The notes under the pieces: generated by a model
Databases searched by the model: none
Told to the model about the DNA's origin: nothing
What the model saw: only the letters and a program-made list of their open reading frames with translations
Made by a program: the position numbers and the translations under genes
Source of the DNA: Candidatus Competibacteraceae bacterium
GTDB taxonomy: Bacteria > Bacteroidota > Bacteroidia > CAIKAF01
DNA: 53,180 nt
Direction of reading: 5' to 3'
Assembly (NCBI GenBank): GCA_014879445.1
Contig: JACSSC010000047.1
Coordinates: 1 to 53,180, forward strand
Part shown: positions 45,895-50,631 of the stretch, in pieces
How the letters are laid out: each line of letters starts with the position of its first letter
Numbering within the stretch: position 1 is the stretch's first letter

Positions 45895-48800
45895 ATGCGC
45901 CTGTTGATTATTATAGCAATGAGTTTTTGCATACTGAATGTACACGCTACTTCATCGGTACGTTTCAGAAAAATTTCTATTGGCGGAGGGCTAACTCAGA
46001 ACACGGTTACAACACTTATGCAAGACGAATATGGTTGTTTGTGGATTGGCTCTCAAGATGGCCTAAATATGTATAACGGAAGTTCATTTCGACACTTTAA
46101 ACACAACTCAAACGACACAAATTCTTTATCTGATAATTTCATTCTCGACCTTTATCAAGATGCCAACGGGCAAATATGGGTTGCTACCCGTAACGGGCTC
46201 AATCTGCTCAACAGAAATACTTTTCAATTTAAGCGATATTATGGCCCTAGTGAAACGAGACGTAAATATCACAACATGTTTTTTAGATTAGCTCCTGTTG
46301 GTCCGGATTTTATTATTTCTCAGCATAACGGTTTTGTTCTAGGACACACTGCTACATTTACATTTTATTCATTAAAAAAAATCATTCATCAATCATTACA
46401 AAACATTAAACTGCAAGACCTATTCCCAACGCAGGATGGGTTTATGATTGCAACAAACCGGGGCTTACTTGTATTTAAATATAATCACGGCTTTCAATTT
46501 ATTCATATTCCACTTATGCAGGGTGAAATTATCAAATCTGCCATGAAATGGAATGATGAAACCGAAATTTGGGTTGGTACAACTCATTCGCTATACAGCG
46601 CAAAAATTGAAAACGGGAATCACACCATCTCCGCAATTTGGGAACATGATGCTGAAAGACAGATAACCTGCATGGAAGAAGCAGATTCTGCAACATGCTG
46701 GATAGGCACACATAATGGTTTATTTATCACCAATCGGTATACACCCGGTTACTCGGCATGCATTCTTCCCGACACTCGTCAGCGTGAAGGAATCTCTTCT
46801 GGAGACATCAATACTTTGCTTCTTGGTGATAACGGATGCATATGGGTCGGAACCATCAATGCAGGTCTTAATATCTATGACCCACAAACAGACCGTTTTC
46901 GATTTATAGAAATTGCTTCGAACGAAAATACCAGTCGTATCAATGCCGCGTGGGGATTATTTCAAACAGACGAAAAAACAATCATTGCGGGCAATTATGA
47001 AGGAATGCAAATTATCCGTTTCAACAAACCCATTAAAGAAATTGCTTCTAGTAATACTACATACTGGACATACGAAACCGAGCCCTTTGAAGCAAAAAAA
47101 ATCAATCAACGAGTAACATACATTCATGGAGATTCGCTATACTATTGGCTAGCTACAAGCGGTAACGGACTCTTTCGCTATGATATTAAGAGCAAAGAAA
47201 TAGTTCAATATTTGCACCATCCACAACGTCCATCCATCTCCAGCAATACCATCTATCATATATCACCCACACGAGACGGCGCGCTTTGGCTTAGCACACA
47301 AGATGGTTTAACCCTGTTTAATCCTGCATTAAACACATTTGAAACAATCAAGACCTCATCATACTCCCCTGAATTAAATGATTTTGTACTTTACACTTAC
47401 GTCTCATTCAATAAAAAATTGCAATTTATCTGTACTGCAAATGGACTCATTGTTGAAGATAAAGAACAGCATACAAGAAAAATTTATCAGCACAACGATA
47501 CGATTCCAGAAAGTATCAGCTTTAACATTACTACTTCGGTATGTGAAGATAAACGAGGATATTTTTGGGTTGCTACACTTGGAGGAGGCATCAATCGTCT
47601 TGATGCGTCAACTGGCACTTTCGAACATTTTGGTCAGGCAGAGGGCCTACTAGATGAAGTAGTTTATACGGTAGTACCCGATGAAGCAGGAAACATTTGG
47701 TTCTCATCCAATACTGCGACAGGAAAAATAAACAGCGCAACATTAGATGTTAGAGTATATCCTATTAACGAAATATTTACACAAGTAGAATTTAGTCAAA
47801 ACTCTTATCACCTTTCAAACGAAGGCACACTATTTTTCGGCGGGTCAAGAGGTATTGTTTTCTTCGACCCCTCTCAGTTTAAAAACAAAGAAAAACCTGA
47901 AAAAGTTTTGCTTAACGATCTACGGCTCAATTTTAGAGGGCTTCGTCCTTCCGACAGTATTTATGTTATTGGTTCACCTCTTTTGCCCCAACGCATTATC
48001 ATGAAGCCAGGTATTCATTCGTTATACACAGAATTTGCAGCCATTGATTACAGAAACCAATCCAATATTCAATTTGCGTACATGCTTGAAGGACATGATG
48101 AACAATGGATTGAACTGCCAACCGGGCAATATTCAGTACTATATTCAGGCCTTCAATTTGGAGATTATATCCTCAAAGTTAAGTACCGACTTAAGGGAGA
48201 GTCATGGTTCCCATTAAGTTTGCAAATACCCATTTCTATTATTCCTCCATTCTATCAAACCCAATGGTTTAGTATCGGTATTTCACTCTTTCTGATTATT
48301 TCCAGCGGATTATTAATTAGATATCTTTCTACTCTTCGCCTAAAACGAAAGCTACGACAAATCGAAACCCAGGCCAAAGTGCAAGAAGAAAGAGCCCGAA
48401 TTTCACGCGAATTACATGACAATATCGGTTCACAACTCACTTATGTAATATCATCGCTCGACAAAATCAACTATCGCCTAACACCTGAAAACACTTTTGA
48501 CGAAAAAGAGAAACTGGAGGCACTAGGTGTATTTGCACGTAAAACAATGAAAGAATTAAGAGAAACAATTCATACCCTTGACAAAAAAAGTTATAATTTA
48601 ATTGAGTTGGTACAAAAAATAAAAGAACTTACAACTACATATGCAACTCATATTGGCATTGAAACCGAAATAACACAATCCATAAAGAAATCATGCACGA
48701 TAGAACCTATCATATTTATACATCTTTATAGAATTGTTCAGGAATCATTACAGAATATATTAAAATATGCACAGGCCACAAAAATATCAGTAGATATTTC

Positions 48801-48996
48801 ATATCAAAGAAAAAAAATCAGTATACGGATTCAAGATAACGGAATTGGATTTGACACTACAGCCCAGTCAAAAGGAAACGGCCTACGAAACATGCAACAA
48901 CGCGTTCAAGAAATTGATGGCAACTGGGAAATAGAAAGTAATCCACAAATGGGTACAACTATTCTCATTAAAGTACCTGTGAGAAATAACACATAA
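45895..48996 (+). CDS. Reg_prop / Y_Y_Y sensor histidine kinase (NarL-type)
   Basis: A 1033-residue sensor. Order: signal peptide (about 1-18); many two-bladed beta-propeller reg_prop repeats (for example CLWIGSQDGLNMYN near 50-63, IWVATRNGLNLLN, IWVGTINAGLNIYD, FWVATLGGGINRLD); a Y_Y_Y domain (about 690-775); a membrane helix (about 785-805); HisKA_3 with phospho-acceptor His841 (SRELHDNIG); and a HATPase domain ending GNGLRNMQQRVQ. The sensory part is periplasmic and large enough to bind a carbohydrate or peptide. Unlike the hybrid kinases of polysaccharide utilisation loci there is no fused receiver or AraC domain. Partner regulator gene is 67 bp downstream. Confidence 0.93.
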   Translation: MRLLIIIAMSFCILNVHATSSVRFRKISIGGGLTQNTVTTLMQDEYGCLWIGSQDGLNMYNGSSFRHFKHNSNDTNSLSDNFILDLYQDANGQIWVATRNGLNLLNRNTFQFKRYYGPSETRRKYHNMFFRLAPVGPDFIISQHNGFVLGHTATFTFYSLKKIIHQSLQNIKLQDLFPTQDGFMIATNRGLLVFKYNHGFQFIHIPLMQGEIIKSAMKWNDETEIWVGTTHSLYSAKIENGNHTISAIWEHDAERQITCMEEADSATCWIGTHNGLFITNRYTPGYSACILPDTRQREGISSGDINTLLLGDNGCIWVGTINAGLNIYDPQTDRFRFIEIASNENTSRINAAWGLFQTDEKTIIAGNYEGMQIIRFNKPIKEIASSNTTYWTYETEPFEAKKINQRVTYIHGDSLYYWLATSGNGLFRYDIKSKEIVQYLHHPQRPSISSNTIYHISPTRDGALWLSTQDGLTLFNPALNTFETIKTSSYSPELNDFVLYTYVSFNKKLQFICTANGLIVEDKEQHTRKIYQHNDTIPESISFNITTSVCEDKRGYFWVATLGGGINRLDASTGTFEHFGQAEGLLDEVVYTVVPDEAGNIWFSSNTATGKINSATLDVRVYPINEIFTQVEFSQNSYHLSNEGTLFFGGSRGIVFFDPSQFKNKEKPEKVLLNDLRLNFRGLRPSDSIYVIGSPLLPQRIIMKPGIHSLYTEFAAIDYRNQSNIQFAYMLEGHDEQWIELPTGQYSVLYSGLQFGDYILKVKYRLKGESWFPLSLQIPISIIPPFYQTQWFSIGISLFLIISSGLLIRYLSTLRLKRKLRQIETQAKVQEERARISRELHDNIGSQLTYVISSLDKINYRLTPENTFDEKEKLEALGVFARKTMKELRETIHTLDKKSYNLIELVQKIKELTTTYATHIGIETEITQSIKKSCTIEPIIFIHLYRIVQESLQNILKYAQATKISVDISYQRKKISIRIQDNGIGFDTTAQSKGNGLRNMQQRVQEIDGNWEIESNPQMGTTILIKVPVRNNT

Positions 48997-48997
48997 A

Positions 48998-49015
48998 ATA
49001 CGACAATTGACGTAT
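48998..49015. promoter_or_regulatory. Candidate operator upstream of the response regulator gene
   Basis: ATACGACAATTGACGTAT is an imperfect palindrome (half-sites ATACGACAA and, inverted, ATACGTCAA, differing at one base) centred on CAATTG. It ends 21 bp before the -7 element. A related copy lies before the next gene. It probably binds the LuxR-type regulator; this is inferred from sequence and position. Confidence 0.55.
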
Positions 49016-49036
49016 CATTATATGTATTGGATGACT

Positions 49037-49044
49037 TAAATTTG
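49037..49044 (+). promoter_or_regulatory. -7 promoter element of the response regulator gene
   Basis: TAAATTTG, 19 bp before the ATG at 49064. No TTTG box at the normal place; the 18-bp palindrome sits just upstream of that position, as expected for an activator-dependent promoter. Confidence 0.6.
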
Positions 49045-49063
49045 TTTTGAAATAAAACAACTC

Positions 49064-49726
49064 ATGAAAAAGATAAAAATAGCCATTGCTGATGATCAGT
49101 CATACTTGCAAAAAACATTACAAGAAACCCTCGGATTATTTGACGATGTAGAGGTAATTCATACTGCATCAAACGGGCAAGAAATATTACACGAATTAAA
49201 CCGTGGATTATCACCAGATATCATACTGATGGACATAAACATGCCAATCATGAATGGGATTGAAGCCACATCAATCATTGCCCAGCAATATCCCAATATA
49301 AAGATTTTGATGCTTACAGTATTTGAAGACGAACATAATCTATTCGACTCCATCATGGCAGGAGCTTGTGGATATTTACTAAAGGATGAAAAACCAACAG
49401 TTCTCCATAATGCTATTCAGGAAGCCATAGAAGGTGGGGCTCCTATGTCTGCAACTATTGCCAATAAGTCGTTGCGCATCATACGCAACGGCCCCCCACA
49501 ACCATCAGAAGATGCTGAGAAGTTCGAACTTTCGAAAAGAGAAATAGAAATACTTGAGAAGATAGCAGAAGGGAAAAATTATCAAGAGATTGCTGACCTT
49601 CTTTTTATAAGCCCAAAAACAGTTCGCAAACACATTGAGAATATCTATCAAAAACTCCGTGTTCACAACAAAGTAGAAGCCATTAACCTAGCTCGAAAAA
49701 ACAAGCTGATACAACTCTTTTTTTAA
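49064..49726 (+). CDS. NarL/FixJ family response regulator
   Basis: A 220-residue regulator: receiver domain (about 1-120) with acidic pair Asp10-Asp11 and phospho-acceptor Asp57 (LMDINMP), plus the switch residues in MLTVFED and the conserved Lys in LLKDEK; a short linker; and a LuxR-type helix-turn-helix (about 150-215, ELSKREIEILEKIAEG, SPKTVRKHIENIYQKL). It pairs with the kinase encoded just upstream. It is transcribed from its own promoter with a candidate operator, suggesting autoregulation. Confidence 0.95.
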   Translation: MKKIKIAIADDQSYLQKTLQETLGLFDDVEVIHTASNGQEILHELNRGLSPDIILMDINMPIMNGIEATSIIAQQYPNIKILMLTVFEDEHNLFDSIMAGACGYLLKDEKPTVLHNAIQEAIEGGAPMSATIANKSLRIIRNGPPQPSEDAEKFELSKREIEILEKIAEGKNYQEIADLLFISPKTVRKHIENIYQKLRVHNKVEAINLARKNKLIQLFF

Positions 49727-49735
49727 AAGCTCAAT

Positions 49736-49753
49736 ATACGACAACAGATGTAT
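49736..49753. promoter_or_regulatory. Candidate operator upstream of the alpha/beta hydrolase gene
   Basis: ATACGACAACAGATGTAT agrees at 15 of 18 positions with the element at 48998-49015, with the left half-site ATACGACAA identical. It ends 22 bp before the -7-like element and 47 bp before the ATG, against 21 and 48 bp at the other gene. Confidence 0.55.
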
Positions 49754-49775: not shown

Positions 49776-49783
49776 TACATTAG
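49776..49783 (+). promoter_or_regulatory. -7-like promoter element of the alpha/beta hydrolase gene
   Basis: TACATTAG, one mismatch to TAnnTTTG, 17 bp before the ATG at 49801. A weak element together with an upstream operator fits a regulated promoter. Confidence 0.5.
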
Positions 49784-49800
49784 TGCAATAAATAACAATC

Positions 49801-50631
49801 ATGAATGCATCTTTTAAAATACGAACAAACGACAACTTACAACTGCAAGGATATACTTACCATAGTTCTCAATCTCCTAGAGTTGTTATTGTTCACGCAC
49901 ATGGCATGGGCGAGCATGCTAGTCGTTACGAACACGTTGCCAATTTCCTTTCAAAAAAAGATATAGCATGGATTAGCATGGACCATCGTGGACATGGATT
50001 ATCTGAAGGGCGACGCGGCCATGCTCCCAACTATGAAGCCCTTATGAATGACGTATTGCTGCTGCACCAAGAAGCAGTAAAAACATATCCCAACACACCC
50101 ATCATTTTGTATGGGCATAGTATGGGCGGAAATCTTATGCTTAATTATTTGATAAGAATGAAACCTGAAATATCCGGGGCTATTATTACATCACCCTATT
50201 TGCGACTAGCCTTTGAACCACCCGGCTGGAAAGTAGCACTTGGAAAATTTTCGGCGGGCATCATTCCTACACTAACACAGCCAACAGGCCTTGATACAAA
50301 AGCACTATCAAGAGACATGCAGGTTGTTAATGACTATGAGAACGACCCGTTAGTACATGATAAAATCAGTTCTGCATTTTTTACCTGTGTTCATGCTGCA
50401 GGCCCCTACGCCATTGAAAATGCTTCATTAATTCAGCAACCTGTATTACTGATGCACGGCACATCAGACCAGATAACATCCCACAAAGCATCAGAAGAAT
50501 TAGCAATCAATAATCCTCAATACATTACTCTAAAACTATGGGAAGGGCTTTACCATGAAATACATAATGAGCCGGAAAAAGAGCAAGTACTAAACATCAT
50601 GAGTGAATGGATTCTCTCACTTCGTTTGTAA
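49801..50631 (+). CDS. Alpha/beta hydrolase, monoacylglycerol lipase-like
   Basis: A 276-residue serine hydrolase of the Hydrolase_4 (lysophospholipase / monoglyceride lipase) group: oxyanion segment VHAHGMGEHASRY, MDHRGHGLSEGRRGH, nucleophile elbow GHSMGG (Ser107), catalytic Asp in HGTSDQI and His in LYHEIHNE. No signal peptide. It lies 74 bp after the response regulator and shares its candidate operator, so it is a probable target of that system. It ends 7 bp from the convergent permease gene. Confidence 0.9.
   Translation: MNASFKIRTNDNLQLQGYTYHSSQSPRVVIVHAHGMGEHASRYEHVANFLSKKDIAWISMDHRGHGLSEGRRGHAPNYEALMNDVLLLHQEAVKTYPNTPIILYGHSMGGNLMLNYLIRMKPEISGAIITSPYLRLAFEPPGWKVALGKFSAGIIPTLTQPTGLDTKALSRDMQVVNDYENDPLVHDKISSAFFTCVHAAGPYAIENASLIQQPVLLMHGTSDQITSHKASEELAINNPQYITLKLWEGLYHEIHNEPEKEQVLNIMSEWILSLRL

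Follow-up and report, generated by a model that had tools for sequence, protein, structure and literature searches.

A candidate NarL-type operator in the place of the −33 element upstream of a Bacteroidota response regulator gene

Related two-component systems and the locus

HisKA_3 kinases, of the Reg_prop/Y_Y_Y or another type, and LuxR-type regulators form common two-component systems in Bacteroidota. In Firmicutes, the regulators VraR, LiaR and DesR have HisKA_3 partner kinases and are autoregulated. NarL of Escherichia coli prefers 7-2-7 inverted repeats, and it activates napF from −40 to −49 and yeaR from −38 to −47 (PMC4549865). On the promoter side, sigma-A promoters of Flavobacterium carry a −7 box, TAnnTTTG, at −12 to −5 (PMC9723704); neither 'LuxR' nor 'response regulator' occurs in the main text of that paper. 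A literature search of open-access text found no described operator or target site for the group of regulators considered here. The element analysed below fits a known kind, the NarL-type operator, with an apparently undescribed recognition sequence and regulon.

The window (the whole stretch of 53,180 nucleotides that was analysed) holds a co-directional trio of genes for a sensor kinase, a response regulator and a hydrolase, with gaps of 67 bp and 74 bp between them. The relevant features are:

45895–48996, forward strand: sensor histidine kinase, 1033 aa (Pfam scan: Reg_prop propeller, Y_Y_Y, HisKA_3, HATPase_c)
48998–49015, forward strand: site 1, predicted operator ATACGACAATTGACGTAT, an 18-mer in the kinase–regulator gap
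49037–49044, forward strand: −7 box TAAATTTG, six of six positions matching TAnnTTTG, 21 bp downstream of site 1
49064–49726, forward strand: NarL/LuxR-type response regulator, 220 aa (Pfam: Response_reg and GerE; recognition region ISPKTVRKH)
49736–49753, forward strand: site 2, ATACGACAACAGATGTAT, with a perfect left half-site TACGACA (49737–49743) and a degenerate right half
49776–49783, forward strand: −7 box TACATTAG, five of six positions matching TAnnTTTG, 22 bp downstream of site 2
49801–50631, forward strand: alpha/beta hydrolase, 276 aa (Pfam Hydrolase_4; S33 family, monoacylglycerol-lipase-like)

The regulator has the NarL/FixJ layout of a receiver domain followed by a GerE helix-turn-helix (PF00072, 6.3e-23; PF00196, 5.1e-21). 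It adjoins a HisKA_3-type partner kinase (PF07730 and PF02518 within 45895–48996), and a similar kinase adjoins most of its homologues. Its nearest solved structures are VraR (E = 1.6e-34), ChrA, DesR and NarL. The system is akin to VraR/LiaR/DesR in that VraR and DesR are among these structures, and also in its HisKA_3 partner kinase and predicted autoregulation; it differs from them in phylum, kinase architecture and recognition sequence.

Site 1 and the regulator promoter

A preliminary description of this DNA had pointed out paired 18-bp elements in the two intergenic gaps, and these hold up: sites 1 and 2 are identical at 15 of 18 positions, and site 1 is a near-palindrome that pairs at 8 of 9 positions. 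Its observation of near-equal spacings was likewise accurate, the −7 boxes lying 21 and 22 bp, and the ATG codons of the regulator and hydrolase genes 48 and 47 bp, downstream of their respective sites. The core of site 1 (48999–49014), TACGACA-AT-TGACGTA, consists of inverted heptamers with a 2-bp gap. The same 7-2-7 frame is found in the class-wide site set, whose consensus heptamer is TA[C/A]G[G/T/A]CA (elsewhere given as TACGNCA), and site 1 scores 26.2 bits (12.7 + 13.5) against a matrix built from that set. This arrangement resembles the NarL/NarP sites of E. coli (napF, yeaR), in which inverted heptamers with a 2-bp gap likewise serve a GerE-domain response regulator. By contrast, the heptamer is TACGNCA rather than of the TACCCCT type, indicating that the operator shares NarL architecture only and is not a NarL site. 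The Bacteroidota promoter with its −7 TAnnTTTG, the Reg_prop/Y_Y_Y HisKA_3 kinase and the lack of a nitrate link further set it apart from NarL/NarP.

The preliminary description had proposed comparing the same gaps in related genomes, and the outcome favours the element. ATACGACAATTGACGTAT recurs unchanged (18 of 18 positions) in the kinase–regulator gap of the orthologues in G003 and G001, whose regulators are 78% and 65% identical in protein sequence to that of the window. All three same-genus genomes with the regulator carry the operator before the regulator gene, the conservation that autoregulation would predict. In other families the element varies and the frame is kept: ATCCGTCAATTGACGTAT (G238), ATACGTTAAATGTCGTAT (G047), ATAAGCCAAATGACGTAT (G181) and ATACGGCAAATGCCGTAT (G250). 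A further operator subtype is ATACGCA-N4-TGCGTAT. Among 48 close regulators (score at least 175 bits), an ATA-N12-TAT palindrome lies upstream of 22 genes, compared with 1.6 in dinucleotide shuffles, and was not found upstream of the other 26; for more distant regulators the count is 4 of 44 (shuffles 1.0). Two genomes, G108 and G139, have operator targets elsewhere but no palindrome before their own regulator. A tree of 90 regulators places 27 of the 28 operator bearers in one fully supported group of 65 rows.

Two minor observations concern operator variants. Tandem operators, ATACGGCATTTGCCGTAT and ATACGGCAAATGCCGTAT, precede the regulator gene of G250 (C12, upstream of the regulator at 76154–76810). 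The subtype ATACGCA-N4-TGCGTAT correlates with an aromatic recognition-helix residue after IS (Fisher p 0.001); this covariation was dropped as evidence of direct binding because it goes back to only 2–3 evolutionary changes and is lost when independent pairs are compared.

The distance between operator and promoter is nearly invariant: 13 of 14 perfect cases, and 15 of 17 five-of-six cases, have a −7 box TAnnTTTG 21–23 bp downstream of the operator. When the −7 box is placed at −12 to −5 (PMC9723704), the operator reaches from about −52 to −34 and is centred at −42.5 to −43.5. It thus occupies the position of the −33 element, as a class II site (centre about −42) does, and transcription of the regulator gene is predicted to start near 49049. 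The promoter is like those of Flavobacterium in its TAnnTTTG −7 box (PMC9723704) and unlike them in that the operator stands in for the −33 element. Because a centre near −43 is combined with a 7-2-7 repeat, and because E. coli NarL activates from sites about 40–49 bp before the start (PMC4549865), class II activation, with a dimer of the regulator bound at the operator, appears most likely. The sites are observed, as are their conservation, the spacing and the co-occurrence with the regulator gene; from these we infer the following course. The Reg_prop/Y_Y_Y HisKA_3 kinase would phosphorylate the regulator, and a dimer would then bind TACGACA-AT-TGACGTA through its GerE domains, with the centre some 43 bp ahead of the transcription start and in place of the −33 box. 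The bound dimer would recruit sigma-A RNA polymerase to a promoter with a −7 box only, resulting in positive autoregulation. Autoregulation through site 1 is well supported by these sequence features. We consider it highly likely that site 1 serves the downstream regulator gene as its operator and confers positive autoregulation, with the hydrolase gene probably also raised through site 2. Such a site offers a concrete model for activation at Bacteroidota promoters, in which an activator site substitutes for the −33 box.

Activation by the regulator had been inferred in the preliminary description; the geometry (a centre near −43, no −33 box) supports it, and it is from this geometry that the probable sign is read. 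NarL-family sites at other positions do repress, for example at frdA (PMC4549865), and negative autoregulation from the same operator sites is conceivable. We regard it as unlikely, since the operator lies upstream of the promoter, stands 21–23 bp from the −7 box and takes the place of the −33 box, and a repressor requires neither this spacing nor this replacement. It could also be supposed that the elements act in RNA, as weak hairpins in a kinase–regulator–hydrolase mRNA, for the arms of site 1 are able to pair and both sites lie between co-directional genes. That reading is highly improbable, because elsewhere the element is found upstream of the promoters of unlinked genes and of divergently placed ones and hence outside the transcript of its target.

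Site 2 and the hydrolase gene

Compared with site 1, a predicted target of activation by the regulator, site 2 is a poor palindrome with only one good heptamer. It scores 7.4 bits, the left half giving 12.7 and the right half −5.3, that is, below background. Transcription of the hydrolase gene is predicted to start near 49788. In G003 the hydrolase gene also adjoins the regulator gene, and ATACCGTATTTTATGTAT stands in the position of site 2, at 6 bp from the −7 box; we read it as a displaced remnant rather than an operator. Elsewhere, the hydrolase orthologues mostly do not adjoin the regulator, and no operator site was found before those in G001, in the wider family or in the named genomes. 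As the right half is degenerate and the orthologues have no functional equivalent, control of the hydrolase by the regulator is plausible but species-specific. By virtue of the same arrangement, the weaker, half-conserved site 2 would let the regulator raise hydrolase transcription, probably in the window's species. The proposal in the preliminary description that the hydrolase is a second target thus keeps its perfect half-site and 22-bp spacing, and is weakened by the degenerate right half, the G003 remnant and the orthologues lacking a site. We grade this control as moderately supported and lean slightly towards it, within the window's species or its close kin.

Against this has to be weighed the account that site 1 is an operator and site 2 is decayed or a chance match, and that the hydrolase gene owes its expression to read-through transcription starting at the regulator promoter or to a weak promoter of its own. 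The below-background right half, the merely displaced remnant in G003 and the siteless orthologues in G001 and other genomes all fit decay, and read-through would suit three co-directional genes that stand 67 and 74 bp apart. What speaks for control by the regulator is that the −7 box of the hydrolase gene keeps exactly the canonical spacing of 22 bp, which neither chance nor decay needs, and that so good a match is rare. In the window's own genome (2.69 Mb), a pattern search for ATACGWCAATTGWCGTAT that tolerated up to 3 mismatches gave no more than 6 places, sites 1 and 2 included; by our own arithmetic, the chance of such a match in the 74-bp regulator–hydrolase gap is about 1e-4. We therefore hold decay or chance to be a serious contender, if a somewhat less probable one.

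Counts of the bare motif show no genome-wide enrichment, with the 6 places in the own genome set against 7 for the reversed control. Among 295 genomes, the bare 18-bp pattern occurs at 29 places, hardly more than the 22 of its reversed control. Since such counts prove nothing alone, the argument draws on where the sites lie, on their conservation and on their distance from the promoter. Of the four remaining own-genome places, at least two fall within genes, and the near matches at C34:132371, C48:58569, C41:503 and C15:32544 were taken as chance because they lie inside coding sequence. A reading of the elements as a dispersed repeat was rejected in view of the small number of copies and their position upstream of promoters.

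The operator–promoter module across the class

When operator and −7 box were combined into the composite ATANGNCANNTGNCNTAT-N22-TANNTTTG, one mismatch being allowed, 41 matches were found in 295 class genomes. The reversed pattern gave 2, and a spacer of N26 instead of N22 gave 5. A genome scan for sites at this distance from −7 elements had been suggested in the preliminary description; the signal emerges with the −7 box included (41 versus 2 reversed) and not with the bare motif (6 versus 7 in the own genome). The regulator, counted as present at roughly E 1e-53 or better, is carried by 18 of the 19 genomes with a composite, compared with 41 of 295 overall (Fisher 1.3e-16, not phylogeny-corrected). 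When places at the regulator gene were left out, it was carried by 15 of 16 composite genomes (Fisher 1.6e-13, not phylogeny-corrected). Composite-bearing genomes are drawn from many families. Together with conservation and the near-invariant −7 spacing, this genome-wide co-occurrence lends strong support to the earlier suggestion that the LuxR/NarL-type regulator has its operator on its own gene.

Genes downstream of the composite mostly start with a signal peptide or lipoprotein signal, typically 34–66 bp past the site; examples encode an OmpA-PD40 protein, a T9SS cargo protein, an FGE-sulfatase-like protein and a PQQ propeller. The same module would accordingly be expected, class-wide, to drive mostly signal-peptide proteins and lipoproteins, and the recurring element very probably serves this regulator family to switch on its own genes as well as its targets. 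A broader proposition seems to us fairly probable: that the module is the target site, and marks the regulon, of a whole Bacteroidota clade of NarL-type regulators with mostly Reg_prop/Y_Y_Y or other HisKA_3 kinases. Besides the regulator gene, the regulon would comprise genes for proteins that are secreted or sit on the cell surface; in the window's genus it would also include a short terminator-ended transcript upstream of slyD that may be a small RNA. A predictive site with fixed promoter spacing permits the regulon to be listed genome by genome, test promoters to be chosen and questions about the kinase signal to be framed.

The preliminary description had placed the kinase gene outside this control. 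No composite site was found upstream of the kinase in the window, but the rule is not general, for in G082 a perfect composite operator precedes a Reg_prop kinase-like gene. In that genome a single palindrome is flanked by composite promoters both ways (G082:C251:7128–7205; L238/L254); one faces the Reg_prop kinase-like gene, the other the gene of a 67-aa LuxR-type helix-turn-helix protein.

Further places were noted in the window's own genome. At G000:C61:12499 (L269:1501–1710), ATTAGGCAAATGTCGTAT is followed at 22 bp by AAAATTTG ahead of a 47-aa signal-peptide ORF that resembles the remnant of a longer gene. At C5:22927 (L134:3428), ATACGACAAATGACGCAA lies 75 bp upstream of a gene for a secreted PD40 propeller protein, and no −7 box follows it with the canonical spacing.

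Each of the four genomes of the genus has an operator-like palindrome and, 22 bp on, a −7-like box; an intrinsic terminator comes within about 70 nt and closes a stretch of 60–70 nt. This terminator-ended element is located as follows:

G000: L268:1501–1620 (G000:C48:7178–7297)
G003: L107 (G003:C318:5442–)
G001: L272 (G001:C66)
G002: L264 (G002:C217:8182–)

It lies upstream of slyD in three of the four; in G003 the contig ends there and slyD opens another contig. TTAACACAACCATTCAAAGGAAAAGCTAA, ahead of the terminator, is common to G000 and G003. An Rfam search of the element gave no credible match, and a possible small RNA gene near slyD is suggested. As G002 has the element and lacks a regulator orthologue, dependence of the slyD-upstream transcript on the regulator is uncertain.

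That G002 keeps operator-like palindromes without a regulator orthologue also counts against the main reading. The palindromes might belong to another DNA-binding protein, such as a NarL-type paralogue or a global surface regulator, and be linked to the regulator by neighbourhood alone; several operator-bearing genomes do have more than one close regulator. Yet sites away from the regulator gene co-occur with the regulator in 15 of 16 genomes from many families, and the sites favour the kinase–regulator gap of the clade and are rare before more distant regulators, which makes another protein an improbable owner and the regulator itself the preferred one. In G002, ATACTGCATATGCAGTAT with TACATTTG at 22 bp lies upstream of a gene for a 426-aa secreted protein (G002:C98:4818; L257), which points to a different NarL-type regulator whose heptamer is shifted.
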